Origin: a bacterium | Lineage (GTDB): Bacteria > JAJVIF01 > JAPKYR01 | Assembly: GCA_026394215.1 (NCBI GenBank) | Contig: JAPKYR010000159.1 | Coordinates: forward strand, 1-33,459 | Length of the DNA: 33,459 nucleotides | Reading direction: 5' to 3' | Shown: positions 3,398-32,382 of the stretch, in pieces | Layout of the letters: each line of letters opens with the position of its first letter | Position numbering within the stretch: position 1 is the stretch's first letter | Notes under the pieces: model-generated | Database searches by the model: none | Seen by the model: the letters and a program-made list of their open reading frames with translations, nothing else | Told to the model about the DNA's origin: nothing | Program-made: the position numbers and the translations under genes

Positions 3398-3724
3398 TCA
3401 ATAGCGGTTTCGTCCGCCTCCACCGCCGCCGCCGCCGCGATAGCCACCGCCGCCGCCGCCACGTCGATCATCTCGACGCGGTTCTTTTGGGCGCGCCTCA
3501 TTAACGGTAATTGTTCGACCACCAAGCTCAGTTCCGTTCAGCGCGTTTGTTGCTGCAAGCGCCTGTTTCTGATCTGGCATTTCGACGAAACCGAAGCCTT
3601 TTGATCGGCCGGTGTCGCGATCGGTAATAACCCTGGCTGATTCCACTTCTCCATAAGCCTGGAAAGCGGATTGTAACTGGTCGTCCGAAACATCGTAGCC
3701 AAGATTACCTACGTAGATATTCAT
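3398..3724 (-). CDS. RRM-domain RNA-binding protein with glycine-rich tail (copy 1)
   Basis: RNP motifs IYVGNL and KGFGFVEM; C-terminal GGGGGGYRGGGGGGGGRNRY. ATG at 3722-3724 has AGGAG upstream; the ORF-track start at 3832 lies in the -35 box. Confidence 0.92.
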   Translation of the reverse strand: MNIYVGNLGYDVSDDQLQSAFQAYGEVESARVITDRDTGRSKGFGFVEMPDQKQALAATNALNGTELGGRTITVNEARPKEPRRDDRRGGGGGGYRGGGGGGGGRNRY

Positions 3725-3832
3725 TAAGTCTCCTATTTTTCTGACTTCGCGGCTCAGTTTCACTAAAAATTGAAATCTGTCCCGAATGTCGTGACTTGGC
3801 TGGATTATACCATTTTCAAGGGTAAAGTCCAA
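3725..3832 (-). promoter_or_regulatory. promoter and conserved 5' leader of RRM copy 1
   Basis: Minus strand TTGGAC (3827-3832), 17 nt, TATAAT (3804-3809), then a leader closely matching that of RRM copy 2. Confidence 0.65.
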
Positions 3833-4135: not shown

Positions 4136-4450
4136 TCAATAGCGGTTACGTCCGCCTCCACCACCGCCGCCACGATATCCGCCACCGCCGCCGCTGTCGC
4201 GACGAGGTGCTTTCGGGCGAGCCTCATTAACGGTAATTGTTCTGCCATCGAGCATGGTACCATTCAGCGCGTCTGTCGCTGCCATAGCCTGTGCTTTGTC
4301 CGGCATTTCGACGAAACCAAAGCCTTTTGATCGGCCGGTGTCGCCATCAGTGATAACCCTGGCTGACTCCACTTCTCCATAAGCCTGGAAAGCGGCTTGT
4401 AGCTGGTCATCCGACACGTCGTAACCAAGGTTACCTACGTAGATATTCAT
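4136..4450 (-). CDS. RRM-domain RNA-binding protein with glycine-rich tail (copy 2)
   Basis: Nearly identical to copy 1: MNIYVGNLGYDVSDDQLQAAFQAYGEVESARVIT..KGFGFVEMPDK; Gly-rich C terminus. Confidence 0.93.
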   Translation of the reverse strand: MNIYVGNLGYDVSDDQLQAAFQAYGEVESARVITDGDTGRSKGFGFVEMPDKAQAMAATDALNGTMLDGRTITVNEARPKAPRRDSGGGGGYRGGGGGGGRNRY

Positions 4451-4792: not shown

Positions 4793-5539
4793 TTACTTTT
4801 TAAGTGATATTTTTTCAGATCCACTATTATATTGAAGTAGTTTCTCCCATAGAATGTTGCCCTCACCATCACAAAAATTGATGGTAAACATTTTTACAAA
4901 CAAGTTAAATTTTTTATCCCATAATTCTTTAAATTCCAAATAATGAATATCTGGTTCGTTGTCCATGAATGTTAACATCTTTTGGTAGAATTGTTCGTCA
5001 CCAGTAATTTTTGTCCAAAATGCCTGTCCTGCTAATTTAAAATATTTCCTTGCTGATGTTGGCTCTGAATTAACTACTCCATACCCGCAACCCATTATAG
5101 GAACAAAATATTTTTTTACCCTCCTTAATGTTGCTCTTAAAGATCCCTCCACTTCCTCAAATCGTTGATTCAGCTTGGATACTTGGTCGGAATTGAATGC
5201 ATTCGGACCAGATTTCAGAGAGATAGCCTGGTAAGAATCACTTGACTCAATTATAAAATCTACCCCCTTTGAAGCAGCGATATTGGCATTTGATGCAGCC
5301 TGGCAAATTGGTTCAAAAAACTCATCACCAAACATTGATTCATCCGATGAAGAAACATAAGCATTTAATAATTCCCCAACTAATTCACCGACATTTGGTA
5401 TTCCTTTCGCCCTAAACATATAAGGATTTTTTCGCTTCAGTACCTTCGTGAAATCCAAGTCATTCAAACTAGATTTTCTACGCGCATAAAAATTTGCCAA
5501 GCAATTTTTAATGATCCCCTCAAGGTCCTTCTCATTCAT
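4793..5539 (-). CDS. type II restriction endonuclease, PmeII-family-like
   Basis: KRKNPYMFRAKGI, SSSDESMFGDEFFEPI, KGVDFIIESSDSYQAISLKSGPNAFNSDQVSKL (D-Xn-SLK catalytic-type motif); overlaps the upstream methyltransferase by 8 nt. Confidence 0.78.
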   Translation of the reverse strand: MNEKDLEGIIKNCLANFYARRKSSLNDLDFTKVLKRKNPYMFRAKGIPNVGELVGELLNAYVSSSDESMFGDEFFEPICQAASNANIAASKGVDFIIESSDSYQAISLKSGPNAFNSDQVSKLNQRFEEVEGSLRATLRRVKKYFVPIMGCGYGVVNSEPTSARKYFKLAGQAFWTKITGDEQFYQKMLTFMDNEPDIHYLEFKELWDKKFNLFVKMFTINFCDGEGNILWEKLLQYNSGSEKISLKK

Positions 5540-6452
5540 TGCATTCTCTTCCCTTTTCCATTTTTGATTTCACTCGTTTTGTTGCTAAATCAACATAAGC
5601 AGCATTAATATCAATTCCAATGAAGTGCCTATTAAGACTCTTACATGCAACGGCTGTAGTACCCGAGCCAATGAATGGGTCAAGTACGATGTCTCCCTCT
5701 TTCGTTAATAATTTAATAAACCATGATGGTAAAGAAACAGGAAATGCGGCACTATGATTCTTATTTCCGCATTCGGTAGCTAAGTGTAAGACATTGGTAG
5801 GATATACTTTATCTCTCCCAATCCAATTGGATACATTTTTTCCAAATCCACTATCAACCTTCGAATTATCACGTATTTTATCTGTTTCACTTAGGTTTTT
5901 TAATCTAGATTGACTCCAATCACCCATAGGGACCATTACTTCTTCTTGGTACATTGAGAAATCTTTACCCTTCGTAAAATGCAGGCAACGTTCCCAAGCA
6001 TCCCGGAATCTATTAGGCCATTTGCCAGGATAACAATTCCTCTTATGCCAGATGTATTCTTCGGTCCATAGCCACCCTTGATTCCTCATTTGAAGAATTA
6101 GTTCAATCACATACGTAAGCCTTTCACCATTTACAGCAATTTCCTTAATATTGAGAACAAATGAGCCTGTTGGTTTGAGAACTTTTAGAATTTGATCAGA
6201 GATAGGTAAAAACCACCCAACATAATCTCTGGGCTTGACGCCGCCATAGACTTTTGATCTTCTATCGGCATATGGCGGTGACGTTACAACCAAATCAACA
6301 AAATTATCAGGCATATCTTGAAGGATATCCAGGCAATCTCCTAAGATAATAGAATCGAGATATTTCGATGAAATGTTAGAACGTTTCGGCACTATATCAT
6401 GGTCCCTCTTCCTTGGTAAGGGAAACTTTAATTGTGTTTGATATCTTACCAT
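5532..6452 (-). CDS. DNA methyltransferase of an R-M system, probable N4-cytosine type (TSPPY), beta-type motif order
   Basis: Motif IV LVVTSPPYADRR near the N terminus; motif I IVLDPFIGSGTTAVA near the C terminus; strong AAGGAGGG Shine-Dalgarno. Confidence 0.9.
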   Translation of the reverse strand: MVRYQTQLKFPLPRKRDHDIVPKRSNISSKYLDSIILGDCLDILQDMPDNFVDLVVTSPPYADRRSKVYGGVKPRDYVGWFLPISDQILKVLKPTGSFVLNIKEIAVNGERLTYVIELILQMRNQGWLWTEEYIWHKRNCYPGKWPNRFRDAWERCLHFTKGKDFSMYQEEVMVPMGDWSQSRLKNLSETDKIRDNSKVDSGFGKNVSNWIGRDKVYPTNVLHLATECGNKNHSAAFPVSLPSWFIKLLTKEGDIVLDPFIGSGTTAVACKSLNRHFIGIDINAAYVDLATKRVKSKMEKGRECNE

Positions 6453-11466: not shown

Positions 11467-11992
11467 CCCATCTTTCCCTCAAACCATATCTGGTTAAGAT
11501 ATCGGAAAATTTACCGGAATCAAATTTAAGTCTGGCGTCAGGTTGCCCGATTAATTCCAATAAATTCTCAATTCTAATTTTATCCTTGGGCCTGAATGTC
11601 TGAACCATAATCGCCATAAGGTATTCAAGAGAAAAGATTTGAGCATTGGTGCTGCCAAACTTTACAGATATTGACTCTTCAACAGCTTCCTCAATCAGGG
11701 GATTATATGCCGGTAAAAATTGAACATGTACTCCCTCTATTAATATCCCATCACCTTCTATCGAATATCCAAGGCCGGTAAGATAATTGTATGTTGGAGT
11801 TAAAAGGTTAAGGTCGTCTTTGCCGGTCGGAAAAAATACGAACAAATCCAGATCATATGCCATTGTGGGTTCGCCATAATATGTGGCTGCGATGCCGCCA
11901 CCAATGGCATACTTTTTAAAGATGCCCCTACTTTCAAGTGATTTTAGAATCTCCAGAGTCTTTTCCATAAAATTAAAATTCCCATATGGCAT
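11444..11992 (-). CDS. nucleotidyltransferase-fold protein
   Basis: YAIGGGIAATYYGEPTMAYDLDLFVFF: GG..A then DxD in the typical NTase arrangement. Confidence 0.7.
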   Translation of the reverse strand: MPYGNFNFMEKTLEILKSLESRGIFKKYAIGGGIAATYYGEPTMAYDLDLFVFFPTGKDDLNLLTPTYNYLTGLGYSIEGDGILIEGVHVQFLPAYNPLIEEAVEESISVKFGSTNAQIFSLEYLMAIMVQTFRPKDKIRIENLLELIGQPDARLKFDSGKFSDILTRYGLRERWDDFIKGN

Positions 11993-23669: not shown

Positions 23670-24602
23670 ATGACTCCGGCAATTAAAATACAAAGATACC
23701 CAAGGCTACAGAATAATCTTCTTGATGAAACTACTTTAAAACCTCATGTAAGGAAACTGTCCATCGGGGAACTTGAAAAAATTGTCCTCGACGCGATTCA
23801 ATATGCGAATATTAAGTCTAGTCGGGATGCATTTAACATCCCAGACGATGCGTCTGATGATGAAATAAACGAGGTTTACACTCAGGCAGGCAGGAGATTA
23901 TTTCAATATTTTATCGAACATTGCGTCGATCCGGCATCAACCACATATCAATGTTTTAACCAATCCTATAAAGAAGTTGGAGCAGAGCAGTTTAGAAATT
24001 GGATTACCCAAAAAGCGAGGATGAATACGGGTTGGCGCTATCAATCCATTGCTAAAAACGCCGCCAGTGTTTCAGGGCGATTCGAAACCATATCAGATAT
24101 TGGCACCCAGGAAGCCGATTTCAATGCTGTTATTTCCTATTGTGAAGGGAATGGCGTTTTAACAATATACGTATCGGTAAAAAACCGGGAATCGACCATG
24201 GGAGGACAGGACTGGCCTAAAGCCATCGCTGCATTGGAAAAAGTTGCTATTAATGATAAGAACAGAGTTGGAGATTATATTTGTGTATTTGGGATTGCAA
24301 TTGATAAGGGACTGCGGCATATAAAATCAATCAAGAAAACAGGGCAACCTCATTCAATCAATACAGAAATTTGGAGATCAGGATTCTTTTGGCCATTTTT
24401 TACAAATCTGACATATGAGGAGATTATACAGGCAGTATTAAATCAACTTATGGCTACCGAAACTGCTGACCCCATAGCATTCGACATTCCTGTACAAATT
24501 CTAAACTCATTCGGGGAATGCTGCAAAAAGCACAACCTGGTCAGTGATAATGGGGACTTCAATAACATTGGTAATTTAATCAAATTGTTTTGTGGAAGTT
24601 GA
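23670..24602 (+). CDS. putative restriction endonuclease, unassigned family, partner of the downstream methyltransferase
   Basis: 310-aa ORF ending 5 nt before the methyltransferase ATG; EADFNAVISYCEGNGVLTIYVSVKNRESTMGGQDW resembles a PD-(D/E)xK core with an SxK variant. Confidence 0.6.
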   Translation: MTPAIKIQRYPRLQNNLLDETTLKPHVRKLSIGELEKIVLDAIQYANIKSSRDAFNIPDDASDDEINEVYTQAGRRLFQYFIEHCVDPASTTYQCFNQSYKEVGAEQFRNWITQKARMNTGWRYQSIAKNAASVSGRFETISDIGTQEADFNAVISYCEGNGVLTIYVSVKNRESTMGGQDWPKAIAALEKVAINDKNRVGDYICVFGIAIDKGLRHIKSIKKTGQPHSINTEIWRSGFFWPFFTNLTYEEIIQAVLNQLMATETADPIAFDIPVQILNSFGECCKKHNLVSDNGDFNNIGNLIKLFCGS

Positions 24603-24607
24603 GAGTA

Positions 24608-25471
24608 ATGCTCTATAGAACTGAAATAATTTTTGGAGACTCGCGAGAAGTCCTGAAAAAGTATCCGGACAGTCACTTCAACCTGATCTTCACGTCACCT
24701 CCATACGCAGATGCTCGAAGAAAGCACTACGATAGCATCAGTCCTGATGAATTTCCCGATTTCCTGCTTTCATTCCACGAGCAATTCTGGCGTGTATTAT
24801 CTGAAGATGGTTCGTTTGTGCTGAATATCAAAGATAAGGTAGTCAATGGTAGGCGCAACAGGTATGTGTGGAAAACAGTCATGGCGCTGGAAGAAAAAGG
24901 CTGGTTAAGCATTGATGATTATCTATGGTTGAAACCGAATGCTATGCCGGGATATTGGAGGAATCGTTTAAGAGATGAATGGGAATACTGCTTCCATTTT
25001 ACAAAAGACAAAAATTTCGCAATGTACCAGGATGCGGTAAAAAAGCCGATGGGGGATTGGGCTGAAAAACGGTTGGCAAATCTGAACGGCAAGAGTGCAG
25101 AACGACACAATAGCGAAAATAGCAGCGGTTTTGGGCGTGATTTAAGAAACTGGTTAGGCAAAGAATATGTACTTCCCGGGAATGTTGTACAAGTGCCTCT
25201 GGTTGGGAAAAATATGGGTCATCCTGCGGTATTTCCAGTAAAACTACCTGAATTTTTCATCAAACTTTTTACGAAAGAAGGAGATTCCATATTGGACCCA
25301 TTTGCCGGGAGTGGTTCTACAGGAATTGCAGCAGAGGAAAATCTCAGAAATGTTGTCTTGGTTGATAATAATCTGGACTATTATAATTTAATGCTTAAAC
25401 GGCTTGGAAGTGATAATTTATTAGGCCGAAAACGAAAATTCATTAATGAGAATGAATTGATAACAAAATAA
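24608..25471 (+). CDS. DNA methyltransferase of an R-M system, probable N4-cytosine type (TSPPY), paralogous to 5532-6452
   Basis: LIFTSPPYADARR near the N terminus and ILDPFAGSGSTGIAA near the C terminus; ATG at 24608 preferred to the TTG at 24590. Confidence 0.9.
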   Translation: MLYRTEIIFGDSREVLKKYPDSHFNLIFTSPPYADARRKHYDSISPDEFPDFLLSFHEQFWRVLSEDGSFVLNIKDKVVNGRRNRYVWKTVMALEEKGWLSIDDYLWLKPNAMPGYWRNRLRDEWEYCFHFTKDKNFAMYQDAVKKPMGDWAEKRLANLNGKSAERHNSENSSGFGRDLRNWLGKEYVLPGNVVQVPLVGKNMGHPAVFPVKLPEFFIKLFTKEGDSILDPFAGSGSTGIAAEENLRNVVLVDNNLDYYNLMLKRLGSDNLLGRKRKFINENELITK

Positions 25472-30001: not shown

Positions 30002-30252
30002 AATATCCCTCCGTCGAATTTATAACCTATTAGTTAATTATAACCTATAATCAACTTATCGGTATAACCGGACAGAGATTTCCTAACCTGCATATATTTC
30101 CGTTCTCATTGATAAAGGGCGCCTGTAAACAGGATGATTTCGCGATTTCTCTTTTACCCCTTATAATAATTATAGAAATACGGACTGAAACCGGAAATTA
30201 CGCCGACGTTAATCCTGACATTATTATAAAGGACTGCTTAGGAAGGTTCGGG

Positions 30253-31176
30253 ATGCAACCGACCGATTGGAAATCGATGTCAAGCACGAGACTTCAGAAA
30301 ATCTGTAAAGTTATTACGTGGCTGGAGCTTGCCGTCGGGTTTTTCCTTATCGCGATGGCAATCTATCTGCTACCGTTCCGGGAATTATGGGTAACTTTAC
30401 TGGTCCTGATCGTCGCGAGTTCATTTTCCTACCACATCAAGGTTGAATTTCCCTTCGCCAGAATCAGCCAGGCATACAGTGTCAATTTTCTCGCGGTGCT
30501 TGCCCTGGGTCCGTTAAGCGGAGCGCTCATCGCGGCATCGGGCGTGACACTTGGCGATGGGCTTTTCCGGCGTAAGCGCGCGCATGCTGTCCTGATCAAT
30601 GCGGCGGTGCAGTTTATCACGACTTATCTCGCAGGTACTATTTACTTCATTCTTGGCGGTATCGGTGGGATCGGCGACGGAGCGAGAGTTGAGGCATTCC
30701 TGGTTCAACCGAATGCAAGCATGTTCTTCCCGCTTTTGGGAGCTGCGTTCATCCATACGGTTGTCAACATCAGCCTGCTGATTCCCGCGATAATCAGCGA
30801 AGGGAGAATGATCCAGCAGGCGACCCTTCTGAAATTATCGAAATGGGACCTCCTGAGTACTCTATGTTTCACGCCGCTAAGTTTTTATATCTTCCTGATT
30901 TATTACGGCACGCTCGGAATCAGGCTTGTTCCACCAATTCTATTCCTGCTCGTGACATGGGTGCTTGTGCAGCGAACACTCGATCTGAATCTCGCGAAAG
31001 GAAAACTCGACCTGAACGTGGACCGTCTGCAGAAAATCACCCAGATTTCCAAAGCAATAAATGCGGCGGGGTTGAATCCGGAAGAAATCCTCGACATTGT
31101 ACTTGTGAACGGCATGATGGTGTGCGGCGCTCCCGCGGCGGTTGTGAGGCTTTTCGATTCAAGTCCAGCGCAGTGA
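30253..31176 (+). CDS. multi-transmembrane N-terminal sensor part ending inside a GAF-like domain (N-terminal half of a split gene)
   Basis: Multiple TM segments from KVITWLELAVGFFLI onward; ends ...MMVCGAPAAVVRLFDSSPAQ followed by TGA (31174-31176). ATG at 30253 preferred. Confidence 0.7.
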   Translation: MQPTDWKSMSSTRLQKICKVITWLELAVGFFLIAMAIYLLPFRELWVTLLVLIVASSFSYHIKVEFPFARISQAYSVNFLAVLALGPLSGALIAASGVTLGDGLFRRKRAHAVLINAAVQFITTYLAGTIYFILGGIGGIGDGARVEAFLVQPNASMFFPLLGAAFIHTVVNISLLIPAIISEGRMIQQATLLKLSKWDLLSTLCFTPLSFYIFLIYYGTLGIRLVPPILFLLVTWVLVQRTLDLNLAKGKLDLNVDRLQKITQISKAINAAGLNPEEILDIVLVNGMMVCGAPAAVVRLFDSSPAQ

Positions 31177-31188
31177 GATTTCGCGGAG

Positions 31189-32382
31189 TTGATCAGGCCG
31201 AATTCTGAAAGATGGAAACGGTTTTTCTCGTCGGAGGCGTTCCAGGCTATTGTGAATTATGTGCGCGATACCGGGAAAAGTCTTCTTATCGATGAATTCC
31301 GGGTAAATATTCTCGGCACCTGGTTCACCCCCGCGCTTCTGGACAAGTATGAACTAAAATCATTCCTGGCCTTCCCGATCCTTCGAGAGGACAAGGTTGA
31401 GGGTCTGCTCTTTTTCTTCGGCGACATGGCGAGTATGTTCACCCAGACGCATATCGAGACGCTTGAGTACCTGTCGGGCGAGATCGCGATCGCTATCCGT
31501 AACGCGAGAATCCATCATGAGATCATGCTCCAGAATGACAGGAGAGCCGAGGAAATCCGCCTCGCCGAGAAAGTGCAGCAACATATCCTTCCTAAAATTT
31601 ACAGGGCTGAAAATATACGCGCGCAGGGAATAATCCGTCCTGCAAGGCAGTTGTCGGGGGATTATTTCGACATTGTCGAGCTGACTAATAATCGACTCGG
31701 AATCGCGATGGGCGACGTCAGCGGGAAGGGCGTTCCGGCAAGCCTTACCATGATGGCGATCATTAACTCGGTACGGGTTCTCGCGCATAAGGTAAAACGT
31801 CCGGATGAGATGCTCAAGGCTCTGAATGAGAGCCTGTACGAAGGGGACTCCAGCCTTGAGGATTTTTACCAGTATTCAACCGGCTTCTATGCAATCCTCG
31901 ACATGAAAACTCTGAAGTTGACATATTCGATAGCGGGAAGCGAGAAACCTCTCTGGTGGCACAGTGAGCAGAAATTCCTTTCGCAGCTTGAGGGCGAAGG
32001 GCTTCCGCTGGGGATGTTCGAAGGTGCAAAATATTCTGTGGAGAAAGCTCAGCTCGAACGAGATGACAAACTTGTGTTTTTCACCGACGGTGTTACCGAT
32101 GCGGTAAATCTGGATAAAAAACGGTATGGCAGGACTACCTTCTCGAATTCTGTCGAGAAGAATTGCCTCAAAGAAAGGCACAATCTGATCGATGCGCTGC
32201 TTAACGATGTGAGAGATTTCCAGCAGGGAGCCGATCCATTCGACGATATCGCCCTTATGGTCATTGAAATTACCGGGGAGGCGACGCCATTGGAAAGGCC
32301 CAAATTCAGGTCGAGCGCTGAATCGCTTATCATCGATACATCGAAGCACAGCCAGTCTCCCCTCTTTTCCGACGAGGATTAG
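31189..32382 (+). CDS. GAF remainder plus PP2C-type SpoIIE/RsbU serine phosphatase (C-terminal half of a split gene)
   Basis: RLAEKVQQHILPK, LSGDYFDIVEL, IAMGDVSGKGVPASLTMM, FFTDGVTDAVN, FDDIALMVIEI; same reading frame as 30253-31176. Confidence 0.88.
   Translation: MIRPNSERWKRFFSSEAFQAIVNYVRDTGKSLLIDEFRVNILGTWFTPALLDKYELKSFLAFPILREDKVEGLLFFFGDMASMFTQTHIETLEYLSGEIAIAIRNARIHHEIMLQNDRRAEEIRLAEKVQQHILPKIYRAENIRAQGIIRPARQLSGDYFDIVELTNNRLGIAMGDVSGKGVPASLTMMAIINSVRVLAHKVKRPDEMLKALNESLYEGDSSLEDFYQYSTGFYAILDMKTLKLTYSIAGSEKPLWWHSEQKFLSQLEGEGLPLGMFEGAKYSVEKAQLERDDKLVFFTDGVTDAVNLDKKRYGRTTFSNSVEKNCLKERHNLIDALLNDVRDFQQGADPFDDIALMVIEITGEATPLERPKFRSSAESLIIDTSKHSQSPLFSDED

Follow-up and report, generated by a model that had tools for sequence, protein, structure and literature searches.

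The question raised by this locus is whether a TGA codon standing within a gene for a membrane-bound sensor phosphatase is read by the cell in some special way or represents a plain nonsense change. The gene lies in the window (the whole stretch of DNA analysed, 33,459 nucleotides) and belongs to contig 47 of the draft genome of an uncultured bacterium, which is 93% complete and comprises 321 contigs with a total of 3.45 Mb. Its features are as follows:

30240 to 30246, + strand: Shine-Dalgarno-like AGGAAGG, 6 bases before the ATG at 30253 (duplex energy -7.1 kcal/mol)
30253 to 31173, + strand: upstream part of the gene, with a membrane domain (MASE9-like, under the Pfam cut-off), a linker helix and the first GAF strand
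31075 to 31497, + strand: GAF coding region, broken by the stop (Pfam PF01590/PF13185, residues 275-415 of the read-through protein)
31174 to 31176, + strand: in-frame TGA, codon 308, in a variable GAF loop; GGC (Gly) in the same-genus relative
31177 to 32382, + strand: downstream in-frame part, with the remaining GAF, a helix, the SpoIIE/PP2C phosphatase and the stop TAG
31189 to 31191, + strand: TTG proposed as a separate start, with an abutting GGAG (spacing 0); a non-start codon in the relative
31687 to 32271, + strand: SpoIIE-type PP2C phosphatase domain (Pfam PF07228, E 5.5e-44), motifs GDVSGKG, TDGxTD and DD intact

The frame opened by the ATG at 30253 reaches the TGA at 31174-31176 and, read through it, continues to the stop at 32380-32382, i.e., one continuous gene of 709 codons is split, with no second stop and no frameshift in the 401 codons that follow the TGA. 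The read-through protein (709 residues) consists of a multi-helix membrane part, with helices predicted across residues 11-271, a GAF domain (275-415) and a SpoIIE domain (479-673). As the N-terminal membrane family, MASE9 stayed under the Pfam cut-off (20.7 bits vs. 24.3). The GAF domain was recovered above its cut-off (E 1.6e-7; PF01590 32.3 bits vs. 22.4), and the SpoIIE domain scored 150.8 bits where 25 is the cut-off; its motifs with the metal-binding Asp residues (GDVSGKG, TDG.TD, DD) are conserved in the alignment. When the halves were searched singly, the GAF match was gone from the upstream one and the downstream one retained only the C-terminal part of the domain. The stop falls in the loop after the first GAF strand, and model confidence was below 50 at residues 303-316. 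The preliminary description had proposed a GAF domain that begins before the stop and continues after it, in a single gene whose halves share one frame; the Pfam matches agree with the former, and an alignment of 709 residues to an intact relative with the latter. A single gene interrupted by an in-frame TGA is thus confirmed, and the stop is genuinely present in the assembled sequence.

Besides the draft itself (G000), the comparison included a genome of the same genus (G001) and two other members of the same class (G002 and G003). Chance adjacency of two open reading frames can be excluded because the G001 ortholog (L002) aligns, free of stops, across the 709 residues with 76% identity. Intact homologs were also found in G002 (30% identity) and G003 (26% identity). 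The possibility had been raised that homologs encode two separate proteins with the same boundary, and all three relatives encode one continuous protein instead. A search of viral contigs gave no relatives, and one scan of genome contigs for further ones returned the same-genus relative only. In pairwise alignment the codon opposite the TGA was GGC (Gly) in G001, GAG (Glu) in G002 and AGC (Ser) in G003, although the placement in the last two is loose because the loop is variable; the residue is unconserved, and none of the three has a stop there. The interrupted state is therefore private to one genome. The pN/pS against G001 was 0.184 before the stop and 0.203 after it, in one pairwise comparison with synonymous change near saturation. 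The similarity of both values, together with the absence of any further disabling change in 401 codons, suggests that the stop would be either recent relative to the split of G000 and G001 or missing from the real gene.

The order of genes around the phosphatase differs from that on the G001 contig. Elsewhere in the window, an EcoO109I-type restriction endonuclease adjoins an N6/N4 DNA methyltransferase as a type II restriction-modification pair (4793-6452, - strand). A second N6/N4 DNA methyltransferase (23670-25471, + strand) is preceded by an open reading frame without Pfam match, possibly the cognate restriction enzyme. Two tandem, nearly duplicate RRM RNA-binding proteins with Gly-rich tails (3398-3832 and 4136-4450, - strand) have in common a terminator-like sequence downstream. 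No Rfam elements or tRNAs were found in the window.

The phosphatase is not the only gene of the draft with such a stop. In 1.25 Mb, or 36% of the genome, we looked for in-frame stops flanked on either side by coding signal. The phosphatase TGA ranked among the better candidates; most of the others were gene boundaries, and three were not:

L036 (G000 contig 6) 259 to 2415, - strand: uvrB, with TAG at codon 417 of 719 (1165-1167)
L176 (G000 contig 89) 5131 to 6621, + strand: gltX, with TGA at codon 371 of 497 (6241-6243)
L032 (G000 contig 2) 11030 to 12967, + strand: dCache/PAS sensor protein, with TAA at codon 276 (11855-11857)

The codon opposite the uvrB stop encodes Glu in all three relatives (GAG, GAA, GAG), and the dCache/PAS protein has stop-free matches in 19 other genomes. 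The gltX stop, which stands opposite a GGG codon of G001, interrupts the anticodon-binding domain, and this gene is the sole glutamyl-tRNA synthetase (GluRS) match found in the genome. Counting the phosphatase, the breaks involve all three stop codons and one of them affects a normally essential gene. Since loss of GluRS is normally lethal, most living cells, if not all, probably lack at least the gltX stop. That the assembly breaks a tRNA synthetase gene of this kind suggests that some or all of these stops stem from errors in the consensus or from a mixture of strains. As a control by homology, alignment with 34 genes of G002 gave one true nonsense, that of uvrB; at three other stops the match was weak and confined to the N-terminal end, and these were attributed to alignments running past the start codon into upstream sequence. 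Among the discarded candidates, the tandem frames of lipoyl carrier/NtrC, MreC and its next gene, FlgH/FlgI and two glycosyltransferases were judged to be gene boundaries by Pfam, and so were, from sequence alone, SucC/SucD and the remaining ones with the exception of L093 3892.

The kind of base change was similar in three of these genes. The preliminary description expected CGA or TGG as the original sense codon of the phosphatase; the Gly codon of the same-genus relative points rather to GGA. Most simply, then, a GGA (Gly) would have become TGA, judging from a relative only 76% identical and at a position within a variable loop. The simplest route in the phosphatase, uvrB and gltX alike is a G to T change at the first codon position (ancestral GGA, GAG and GGA). 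Given the codon usage of the genome, 16-25% of random nonsense changes would be of this type, depending on transition bias, and the chance of finding it in three out of three is roughly 0.4-1.5%, for a set of three cases with the ancestral codon inferred in two. Small as the sample is, the pattern hints at an oxidation-type error or at a G:C to T:A mutational bias. A mutator strain lacking MutY might be one source of such changes: no match to MutY was over the cut-off in G000, G001 or G003, though the 266-bit match of G002 was also under it.

In our view the TGA is very likely a sporadic nonsense substitution (a consensus error, a strain allele or a recent mutation) in an otherwise normal phosphatase gene. 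One G to T change would have converted GGA into TGA within the gene for this membrane-GAF-SpoIIE phosphatase. This change may be confined to the draft consensus, as a sequencing or assembly error or as an allele carried by a fraction of the population, or may be a real and recent mutation. The first, an artefact or minority allele, seems on balance the probable origin; a real mutation in the sampled cells is possible, if rather doubtful. Were it real, translation would end at codon 308, leaving a stub made of the membrane part and a broken GAF domain, and save for trace leakage there would be no phosphatase output. Of the four options offered by the preliminary description, nonsense mutation and assembly error (or strain variation) are the ones that gained support, and neither readthrough nor a separate start at TTG 31189 found positive evidence.

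Readthrough of the TGA, programmed or tolerated, that would give a little full-length phosphatase is very improbable. The equal constraint before and after the stop would fit with it, as would the in-frame stops under purifying selection that have been reported for bacterial genomes generally (PMC7918605). However, the relatives have sense codons at the position of codon 308, and the search for a tRNA or recoding element that had been suggested brought up nothing in its favor. The RNA 3' of the stop contains no stimulatory structure and folds less stably than its shuffles (z-scores 0.58, 0.45 and 1.13), and no tRNA with UCA anticodon appeared among the G000 tRNA genes read with ARAGORN, an absence that in an incomplete assembly is not proof. 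In addition, other genes of the draft are broken by all three kinds of stop, and therefore nothing is specific to this site.

Equally improbable is a division of the gene into two separately translated proteins, in which ribosomes would reinitiate at TTG 31189 or GTG 31252 to make the phosphatase half. The TTG is located 12 bases past the stop, but its GGAG lies at spacing 0 and is unusable as a Shine-Dalgarno sequence, and G001 has CTC at this position. The GTG is preceded by GGAGG, although the distance of 14 bases is long. In either case the product would start within the GAF fold, and the single continuous protein of all three relatives argues against the split. It is still less probable that termination at each of the three stop codons is leaky and tolerated as such in this lineage, with the stops in gltX, uvrB and the phosphatase being usefully translated and acting as a brake on expression.

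Two further readings can be practically dismissed. Selenocysteine at the TGA would find some basis in G003, of the same class, where tRNA-Sec and SelB are both over the cut-off, but in the draft itself (93% complete) both are under it, and no relative has Cys at this position (Gly, Glu and Ser). TGA is reassigned to Gly in Gracilibacteria, and a Gly codon does stand opposite the TGA both here and in gltX; a similar reassignment in this genome is nevertheless refuted by the normal use of TGA as terminator, which ends 241 of 682 long open reading frames in the 1.25 Mb (TAG 159, TAA 282), as had been advanced against a global code change. Also against it are an intact RF2 over the cut-off, the lack of a UCA-anticodon tRNA among those examined, and the breaks of uvrB (TAG) and the PAS protein (TAA), which a change in TGA leaves unexplained.

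A sporadic nonsense substitution is an ordinary phenomenon, and recoding is unsupported. As a single gene the case has little importance and serves rather as a caution: when in-frame stops appear in conserved genes of metagenome-type drafts, the rest of the genome should be checked before proposing recoding.

There are precedents for both the stop and the protein. The nonsense variants described by Belinky et al. (2021; PMC7918605) resemble the present case in having one in-frame stop and two gene halves that look constrained, but here one genome represents the species, too few to show a polymorphism. The phosphatase domain is alike, by Pfam, PDB sequence search and fold, to those of P. aeruginosa RssB (3f79), Rv1364c (3ke6), SiaA (6k4e) and SpoIIE (5mqh). 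Unlike all four, the protein described here has another sensor part, a multi-helix membrane domain followed by GAF, and its gene carries a TGA in codon 308.
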